From: Periplaneta americana
Lineage: Eukaryota; Arthropoda; Insecta; Blattodea; Blattidae
Length of the DNA stretch: 64,000 nucleotides
Direction of reading: 5' to 3'
NCBI RefSeq assembly: GCF_040183065.1
Contig: NC_091117.1
Coordinates: 102,311,501-102,375,500, forward strand
Part shown: piece by piece, positions 23,756-26,767 of the stretch
How the letters are laid out: each line of letters starts with the position of its first letter
Numbering within the stretch: position 1 is the stretch's first letter
Translations under genes and position numbers: made by a program
The notes under the pieces: model-generated
What the model saw: only the letters and a program-made list of their open reading frames with translations
Told to the model about the DNA's origin: nothing
Databases searched by the model: none

Positions 23756-24237
23756 ATAATAAGCAGGGAAAGGATTTATATGTAAATACATATTTACTTA
23801 TAAAGCTAATATAATTTATATTTTGCATTATCTTTATGTTTCACAATGTGTAGGGTTGAAAAATCCTACTTTTATTTTCCATATTTTTCCATATTTTAGA
23901 GTTTAGTACATATTTTCGTTAATTTCCATATATTTTCCATATTTCATATAAAACAGTCCATATTATATTAGGTTTAACAATAAAACAAAACAAAATTCCA
24001 TTAACTTTTAAAAATACATTTCAACAATAGAGATTTAAACACATGTTCAGTAATCCCTTTAACATCAGAGTTATTTGAAAATTAGCAGTCCTATCAACAA
24101 TGGGAAAGTAAGTTACAAAACTGTATTAATTTAATTTAAAATTTTTAACAGACTTCAGTTGTGCAGCTCAACAGTTAAATGCCAGTCAGAGTACACATAG
24201 GTTCAGTTTTGTAAATCATACTATAAAGACGGTAAAT

Positions 24238-25722
24238 ATGCCAAAAGTACGTCATTCAGTCAATTTAAAATCAAAACTAACAAGTTACATTTCAGAATTT
24301 AAAGAAGATGGTTTATCAACTGACAATAAAATATTATTTTGTAATTTGTGTCAGTGTGCAGTATCATCTACACAAAAGTTCCTGGTGCAACAACACATTA
24401 CAACTAGTAAACATCAGGCCAACAAACAACTAAATTCCAAGCAGAGACAATTGTTTTTAACACAACCAACAACATCGAATGTAAGATCTGAGTTTAACAT
24501 CGACCTGTGCCGTTCTCTCATCTCTGCTGATATTCCTCTCTACAAACTAAAGAATAAGGTCTTCAGGGAATTCCTTGAAAAATATACTCAACATACAATC
24601 CCGGATGAGTCAACACTTAGGAAGACGTATGCTCCATCCATCTACGATGAGACAATACAGAAGATAAGAGATGAAATTAAAGATAGTTCAATTTGGGTTT
24701 CCATTGATGAGACTCCCGACAAAGAAGGTAGACTTGTTGGTAATGTAGTTATCGGTTTGTTAAGTGAACAATATTCTGAACGAATTCTTTTACATTGTGA
24801 TGTTCTAGAAAAGTGCAATAACAAAACTATAGTTAAACTGTTCAACGAAGCTATGGGTATCCTGTGGCCAAAGGGTATTATGTACGATAATGTGTTATTC
24901 TTTATTAGCGATGCTGCCCCTTATATGGTCAAAGCTGGACAAGCATTATCTGTTGTATATCCTAAATTGACTCATTTTACTTGTGTGGCGCATGCATTTC
25001 ATCGTGTGGCAGAAGTGGTCAGAGACAATTTCCCTAAAGTAGATTTGTTGATTTCATCAGTGAAAAAAGTATTTCTCAAAGCTCCCAGTAGAGTTAACGT
25101 GTTGAAAGAAATGTACCCTGAAATTCCATTGCCACCAAAGCCAATTTTAACTAGATGGGGTACATGGCTAGAAGCAGTTGAATATTATGCCGAACATATA
25201 GACTCTATTAACAATGTTCTCCTTGCATTGGACTCTGAAGATGCAGTCTCAATTGATACTGCGAAAACAGTTACCTGTGACATAAGTGTGAAGAATGACT
25301 TAGCTCACATTCAGCATACATTTTCATGCATCATAAAAACGCTCAAAAGTCTCCAAAATAGGCACCTTTCACTATCTGAAAGTTTTGAAATTATAAATAG
25401 TACTGTGGAACAACTGAATCGTGGTAGAGGTAAAGTTGCAGATGCAGTAAGAGCTAAGGTGGACACTGTACTTTCAAAAAACCCTGGATATGAAGAACTA
25501 CAAAAGGTTGTTGCTGTGATGAGTGGTGAATCAACAGTGAAGATTAACTTGGACTTATCCCCAGCAGACATTGTGAAATTGAATTATGTACCAGTTACTT
25601 CTTGTGACGTCGAACGCTCTTTTAGTCAGTATAAATCTATCCTCAGAGACAATAGAAGAAGATTCACTTTTCAGCACTTGAAAGAAATGTTTGTAACCTA
25701 TTGTTATGGTAACAGACAATAA
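24238..25722 (+). CDS. hAT-superfamily transposase, intact, 494 aa
   Basis: The transposase would cut and rejoin its element in the nucleus through a DDE active site. An N-terminal C2H2/BED-like zinc finger is visible: C35, C38, H53, H59 (FCNLCQ then QQHITTSKH). Catalytic candidates are D157 in [11 protein letters not shown]225 in [10 protein letters not shown] and E459 in [10 protein letters not shown]. The hAT insertion-domain C-x2-H is C249/H252 in [10 protein letters not shown], and TRWGTWL (305-311) is the conserved Trp block. The C-terminal dimerisation region follows to residue 494. The start at 24238 is the first ATG of the frame, follows gtaaat, and precedes the zinc finger. The protein is short for hAT but has every expected block. 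Relatives annotated in insects include CGGBP1-like proteins (from memory). Decayed copies lie at 820-2190 and 39370-41496. Confidence 0.95.
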
Positions 25723-25840
25723 AAATTGTGTTTTGTTGAAACTACATTGGAAGATAAGGTACGTCCATTATATTTTTTGTTTAGTTTGATTAAAATGTAC
25801 CAATATTTAACGTACATAGTCATTTTTTTATAATTTTAAG

Positions 25841-25900
25841 TCCATATTTAATTCCATATTTTGGTAAAAATCCATATTTAATTCCATATTTTGGTAAAAA
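25841..25900. repeat. 30-bp perfect tandem duplication near the hAT right end
   Basis: Two identical 30-bp units (25841-25870, 25871-25900), each containing tccatatttaattccatatt followed by ttggtaaaaa. With the related ccatatttt words at about 23878-23960 they form the subterminal repeat set of this element. Subterminal motif clusters are known binding sites for hAT transposases; that role is inferred here. Confidence 0.85.
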
Positions 25901-26767
25901 TAACTACATATATATTTACATATTTCATATATTTTTAGTCCATATAAATCCGTTCCCTGATAATAAGTAATGTTCATAACATGATAAATAAGCAATGGAC
26001 AGAAGATTGGTTAAGTGGACAAACAGGAAGAGCACTATGGAAAATTTTAAACCCAACGATGTTAAAATCTACAGTGATGTTCTCAGACACGTACAAACTT
26101 TTGTTGCATAGGCTAGAATTGGACACTTTGTTACGGAAGCTTACCTGCACTGCTTTAAATTATCAGTCACCATTATGTAAAAAAAATTTTTAACAGAAGA
26201 AGAAATAATAGAACACATCCTACTTCATTGTAATAACATCAACCATAAACTGCAGGAAAGAATAAAAAAAACCACTCACCAATCCACAGTTCTGGAAAAT
26301 TGTTTATTTAATTTACTGTGGACATCGTATAATCAGCTTATAGCTGGACACATGTACAGTCAAATCTCCGTATAATGATTATCATTATGACGATAAATCC
26401 CTCTATTGCAATTAAAAATATAATTCTCCGCATAAAATGTATTCCTTCAATGTAAAAATTTCTCCCGATATAACGATATGCTCTTGTGCCGATATTTTGG
26501 ACCAACCTGTCTTTTTCTTCTATTTCTGTAGTATTGATTTTTTTTTATCCATCCATCATGGCTGGTTTCCTTATTTTCTTTCTTTCCCCGCTAGATGTCT
26601 TTTGCCCAATCTTGTTTTATTTATTTTTTTTATCTTCTTATACGTATGTGGAGAACGAGTTTATTTCCGGGTTTTTTCTGTTGTTTATTGGTTCGGTTCA
26701 TAATGTCTTTTTGATTGGTTAAATTTAAAATTTCTTTCTGTTTGTCATTGGTTGGGTTTTAGCTCTT

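Follow-up and report, generated by a model that had tools for sequence, protein, structure and literature searches.

The window analysed here, a stretch of 64,000 nucleotides from contig NC_091117.1 of the cockroach Periplaneta americana, contains a hAT transposon that the initial annotation described as structurally complete, probably young and possibly active. The question raised by this locus is whether the element stands alone or belongs to a larger family, and how such a family would have arisen. We describe it below as belonging to one very young autonomous hAT family, which very probably rose in a short burst to ~7,070 full-length copies in each haploid genome of the American cockroach. 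The kind of element is ordinary; its state is unusual, a new hAT family with ~7,000 near-identical full-length copies and with deletion derivatives undetected.

Structure of the element and its insertion site

The ends of the element carry two features of the hAT superfamily: short terminal inverted repeats (TIRs) starting with CAG/CA, here 19 bp long with 18 of 19 positions matching and one mismatch, and an 8-bp target-site duplication (TSD), here perfect (Table 1). The insertion lies within the RNase H portion of a LINE remnant, and when the flanks are joined at one copy of the TSD, an RNase H-type LINE reading frame runs on across the insertion site. The complete element, its ends and its unbroken transposase frame were thus found as initially annotated, and the same holds for the conserved residues and the subterminal repeats considered below.

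Table 1. Coordinates, within the window, of the hAT element, its transposase, the interrupted LINE frame and two hAT relatives
Feature	Position	Strand	Remarks
Complete hAT element	23764..25959	+	2,196 bp; same as the consensus of 55 aligned copies
Left TIR CAGGGAAAGGATTTATATG	23764..23782	+	19 bp
Right TIR CAGGGAACGGATTTATATG	25941..25959	-	letters as read on the - strand
Left TSD ATAATAAG	23756..23763	.	same letters as 25960-25967
Right TSD ATAATAAG	25960..25967	.	same letters as 23756-23763
Left subterminal region	23778..24013	+	5 CATATTT motifs, of which 3 are CCATATTT at 23879, 23889 and 23937
Right subterminal region	25838..25930	+	two 30-bp repeats and 5 CATATTT motifs
Transposase ORF	24238..25722	+	494 codons, stop-free; open in 48/55 aligned copies
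BED-type zinc finger C35-x2-C38-x14-H53-x5-H59	24340..24414	+	Leu (L33) two residues ahead of C35
DUF659 region, residues 122-278, with D157 and D225	24601..25071	+	PF04937, 2e-12
CDVERSFS block, residues 456-463, with E459	25603..25626	+	overlapped by sub-threshold Dimer_Tnp_hAT match, residues 451-486
Interrupted LINE RNase H frame	23210..23763	+	PF00075, 7.3e-14; frame resumes past 25967
Decayed hAT relative	1596-828	-	28-38% amino-acid identity (range with the other relative)
Decayed hAT relative	39721-40196	+	28-38% amino-acid identity (range with the other relative)

Within the transposase, D157, D225, E459, C249-x2-H252 and TRW at residue 305 are present where the initial annotation placed them, with D157, D225 and E459 at the expected blocks. 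The DUF659 region, the putative RNase H-like core, together with D157, D225 and E459 corresponds to the predicted D-D-E core of the hAT superfamily. The Pfam match to the hAT dimerisation domain PF05699 was sub-threshold (14.8 bits vs a cut-off of 21.4). The Cys and His residues of the BED finger (C35, C38, H53 and H59), preceded by L33, reproduce a feature of CGGBP/hAT-19 elements. CGGBP/hAT-19 elements also have two conserved prolines in the Hermes DNA-binding domain; in the present protein, prolines occur at 100, 122 and 133 in its own numbering. Residues 85-145 presumably resemble human CGGBP1. Comparison of the transposase with PDB sequences gave no relevant match (best E 0.12), and the single-sequence structure model was unusable (pLDDT 37.2).

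The subterminal regions are rich in the motif CATATTT, with five occurrences in the first 250 bp and five in the last 250 bp of the element; such a number was reached in 0 of 2,000 dinucleotide shuffles. All ten motifs lie on the + strand and none on the - strand, so that the inverted ends (terminal 250-bp stretches, 23779-25930) are not mirror images of each other. This single polarity is odd for a pair of inverted ends, where mirror symmetry would be expected, although the near-palindromic core of the motif may soften the oddity.

According to the initial annotation, everything else in the window is decayed, including two relatives of the element. Both relatives are indeed present and decayed, but they represent other hAT lineages rather than decayed copies of this family. 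The description of the remaining window was roughly right, except for a 731-aa LINE reverse-transcriptase frame open at 41515-43710 (+), which also has an endonuclease-like match below cut-off and is followed at 43768-44223 by a second open frame of 151 aa; the LINE copy at 41515-44223 may be only lightly damaged. Other observations include a 550-aa open frame at 37086-38738 (-), which is repetitive in its N-terminal half and is not matched by Pfam, and a DUF4371 fragment at 46787-47278 (-), the remnant of another transposase-like family.

Copy number, completeness and target sites

The genome searched comprises 3,231,669,367 bases in 91 contigs; the available text on the P. americana assembly PAMFEO1_priV1 gives 3.23 Gb, 91 scaffolds, 17 chromosomes and an N50 of 188.1 Mb (PMC12774602). 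Allowing up to three mismatches, a 43-mer from the left end occurs 7,073 times and a 44-mer from the catalytic region 7,072 times genome-wide. As net figures, these end and interior counts would not reveal a few deletion derivatives if a few left-truncated copies offset them. Exact left or right TIRs number 13,922, and the reversed-pattern controls gave 0 for each of the three patterns. At the measured divergence, 7,073 two-ended copies are expected to yield 13,923-13,964 exact TIRs; since the observed number is close to this, nearly every end appears to belong to a full-length element. Among the matches listed, 100 TIRs form 49 convergent pairs ~2.2 kb apart and two singles, and the perfect left end at C1:29063026 is without a zero-mismatch interior. 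Altogether, the family occupies ~0.48% of the genome.

Whole copies were read in two samples chosen without regard to the interior. The positional sample comprised, without omissions, the 54 perfect left ends listed first for chromosome C1 (0.7-24.2 Mb), and the genome-wide sample consisted of 8 copies from 8 other chromosomes picked by TSD and TIR alone; the former thus lies within the first 24 Mb of one chromosome and whole copies read elsewhere number 8. In the positional sample 53 of 54 copies are full length (2,168-2,226 bp), with 51 perfect TSDs and two more with a single-base indel. All eight genome-wide copies are full length with a perfect TSD, and seven have an open frame. Combined, 61 of 62 interior-blind copies are full length and 59 have a perfect TSD, while internal-deletion derivatives were found in 0 of 62, which by the rule of three puts them below about 5% of copies.

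The 494-codon frame is open in 48 of the 55 aligned copies (the 54 positional ones plus the window copy) and broken in seven (L031, L036, L040, L047, L048, L056 and L061); L070 has one coding change and an open frame. In L040 the right tip is replaced by unrelated DNA, and L027 has a changed left tip and a partial TSD; these damaged tips are possible traces of failed excision. The initial annotation had proposed a genome search for near-identical copies and had named, as grounds for doubting a young and active element, catalytic lesions common to all copies or an old locus devoid of close relatives. With ~7,000 copies found, close relatives are abundant, and no lesion of the catalytic region common to all copies was found among the 55 aligned.

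The copies are widely dispersed. The TSD of the window copy is carried by 58 copies spread over all of C1-C17. Distances between 100 left ends on C1 agree with random placement (KS p 0.92), an assessment covering part of this one chromosome; local clustering of copies was looked for in this set and not found, giving no general sign of local hopping. In a count that left out the TSD used for selecting copies, 66 perfect TSDs have central AT in 66, T at position 2 in 63 and A at position 7 in 57 cases, which corresponds to the consensus nTnATnAn. The target consensus of the hAT Ac group is nTnnnnAn, whereas Buster elements use TA-centred targets. Here, 55 of 66 TSDs match nTnnnnAn and none of 66 matches nnnTAnnn, in line with the Ac group. 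The invariant central AT represents a stricter choice than nTnnnnAn.

Age, descent and origin of the copies

The claim that the element is young is borne out by the sequences of its relatives. The window copy is the exact consensus of the 55 aligned copies, and the 54 positional copies carry on average 1.83 substitutions per 2,196 bp, or 8.3e-4 per site, with a variance-to-mean ratio of 1.25 (p 0.10 vs Poisson). For this count L040 was set to 3 substitutions, with seven differences stemming from its replaced tip. Genome-wide, a 180-bp coding stretch is matched exactly by 6,254 of 7,072 copies, corresponding to a divergence of 6.8e-4 (standard error 0.24e-4). Divergence from the founder sequence is thus ~0.07-0.08%, and the window copy equals the founder sequence exactly. 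A 31-copy set averages 1.10 substitutions and was left out of the age estimate; its 30 fetched members had been selected for 100% protein identity. With an insect mutation rate near 2.8e-9 per site per generation, divergences of 6.8e-4 to 8.3e-4 give a loose age estimate of roughly 240,000-300,000 generations.

Across 78 copies we counted 134 SNVs with four sharing pairs, compared to 2.5 expected on a star tree with recurrence (P 0.23). The zero-substitution class of the 54 positional copies holds 12 members vs 8.6 expected, which is not significant. Coding changes in the 55 aligned copies (17 synonymous, 42 missense and one stop) are close to the neutral expectation of 16.0, 41.2 and 2.7, and no selection on the coding sequence was found in this set. 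The star-like sharing of SNVs and the neutral coding changes therefore point to a short burst from one sequence followed by neutral decay. In the available repeat analysis of the P. americana assembly, hAT and Tc1-mariner elements peak near 5% Kimura divergence, and that part of the source singles out no family as young as this one (PMC12774602). A search of the open literature, without subscription papers, Repbase or Dfam, showed no earlier description of the family or of a comparable burst.

The bulk of the copies go back to one burst that lies some time in the past, and a single pair of copies is the sole sign of later movement. Just two copies in the whole genome, L019 and L020, carry variant 891T; they have different TSDs (GTTATTAA and GTCATATG) and lie 206 kb apart. 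Recurrence alone predicts 1.2 copies genome-wide and so fits the count; it is only the closeness of the two copies, which two random places would show with a chance near 1e-4, that argues for a variant shared by descent through a local jump or by gene conversion. The pair likely arose in one of these two ways, as a later local jump or by gene conversion. Ectopic conversion between neighbouring copies, with the family silent since its burst, is the less probable reading: the tree is otherwise star-like, the spread of mutations is near-Poisson and 322A, a variant of two sampled copies, is found in 8 scattered copies genome-wide, near the 9.1 expected by recurrence, but the slight, non-significant excess of copies with zero substitutions is what a trickle of late insertions would produce. 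By the same count, 322A was rejected as a subfamily marker.

The catalytic reaction of the hAT superfamily is well known, and by analogy with it the transposase would use its N-terminal BED finger and a Hermes-type domain to bind the TIRs and the AT-rich CATATTT motifs, and would excise the element as other hATs do and insert it at nTnATnAn targets with an 8-bp duplication. Copies would have been gained chiefly by jumps from replicated to unreplicated DNA, or through faithful repair from the sister chromatid. In other systems, repair of the excision gap often yields deletions. A jump of the Ac type leaves a full-length duplicate without gap repair, and under either replication-coupled jumping or faithful sister repair, full-length copies rather than deletion products would pile up. 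By this analogy, we put the chance that an Ac-type replication route or very faithful sister repair made the burst at about even.

The main rival to this route is that deletion derivatives are missing due to youth alone, with MITEs and deletion products still to come. The family is indeed very young; however, internal deletions accrue per transposition and not per year, as established for P and Ac, and at least ~7,000 insertions were made without one internal deletion among the 62 interior-blind copies and with TIR counts that fit full-length elements. Youth as the sole reason is therefore conceivable, though we hold it somewhat improbable. A more radical reading, which we consider doubtful, is a bloom of autonomous copies only, in which ~7,000 intact copies were made almost at once, are gained practically without internal deletions and perhaps still move by local hops; strictly replication-coupled jumping, or a transposase requiring an intact interior in cis, would be examples. 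Where cut-and-paste elements are abundant, it is usually their short non-autonomous relatives that make up the numbers, intact autonomous copies being few. Such a bloom, if true, would break the usual rule for DNA transposons, which proliferate mostly as short elements that parasitise a few autonomous ones. That the copy number is inflated by an assembly artefact, or by collapsed or duplicated haplotypes, is highly improbable: the counts come from a single assembly of one individual, but flanks and TSD are distinct for every copy sampled, all 17 chromosome-sized contigs carry copies, and the assembly is HiFi-based with 1.5% duplicated BUSCOs.

The burst also raises the question of where its founder came from. 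If it entered from another species shortly before the burst, the family would have no vertical history in this genome, and the sampled copies do all derive from one sequence, with no older layer and with SNV sharing that fits a star. Furthermore, an older, moderately diverged set of copies could not be accommodated within the exact-TIR and 43/44-mer counts, and seven DUF659 relatives from the same genome are only 45-56% identical to the element at the amino-acid level over 157 aa. On the other side, these seven are the ones read among 150 scored matches, so a closer resident relative is possible; the genome is rich in related families as a possible origin; and no encoded relative was found in the viral contigs. 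We regard horizontal transfer as evenly balanced on this evidence. A burst from outside, if true, would be a clean case for tracing such transfer.

Related elements and known systems

In the search of the cockroach genome with the DUF659 profile, all 150 scored places were over the cut-off, out of 11,184 first-look candidates, while none of 14 control genomes gave a match. The seven relatives read (L085-L091) share with the window element the DUF659 core with matching D, CLAH/CVAH and W blocks, and several DUF659 families of this genome are likewise multi-copy with long open frames. Frame lengths repeat among the 150 places (467 aa in 13, 513 aa in 7 and 456 aa in 6), and these repeated lengths suggest further young multi-copy hAT families. 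At G000:C12:77291427-77297196, four matches with identical scores and ~1.8-kb spacing probably form a tandem array of a hAT fragment. A lone 19-bp TIR match in the viral contigs (L076) has no element behind it and was rejected as chance.

Judged by its sequence, the element represents a DUF659 hAT family of its own that has CGGBP/hAT-19-like features. CGGBP-type hATs (hAT-19 subclass, with members in Rhodnius and Locusta), together with the CGGBP domestications, share the BED finger, the leucine two residues ahead of it and a proline-bearing segment after it (PMC8097297). As far as that source was available, insect hAT-19-type proteins bind AT-rich motifs, and motifs encoded by hATs match their subterminal regions (Yellan et al. 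2021, PMC8097297); the AT-rich repeats at the ends of the present element parallel these subterminal motifs.

Although the kind of element is known, its demography is unusual: autonomous copies multiplied recently in a large burst, no MITEs were detected, and the whole amounts to a natural experiment. Because nearly all copies descend from one founder, the 7,073 insertions form a neutral mutation-accumulation set; they also provide a dense set of possibly polymorphic markers.

Among known systems, Ac/Ds of maize resembles the cockroach family in belonging to the hAT superfamily and in having an 8-bp TSD and subterminal repeats (PMC3260210; PMC4270019), but the CATATTT motifs of the latter all run in one direction at both ends, unlike the repeats of Ac/Ds. 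According to the available part of the maize study, the B73 genome has 903 elements with Ac/Ds TIRs and TSDs, of which only three are Ac-like and the rest much shorter (PMC3260210). The cockroach family, with 61 of 62 interior-blind copies full length and ~7,000 intact copies, reverses this ratio, so that a single laboratory-insect genome offers a chance to study how copies are gained free of gap-repair errors, how a burst ends and how the host silences an element. Ac itself is reported to transpose while DNA is being replicated, moving from replicated to unreplicated sites (PMC4270019), the route of copy gain suggested above for the cockroach family.
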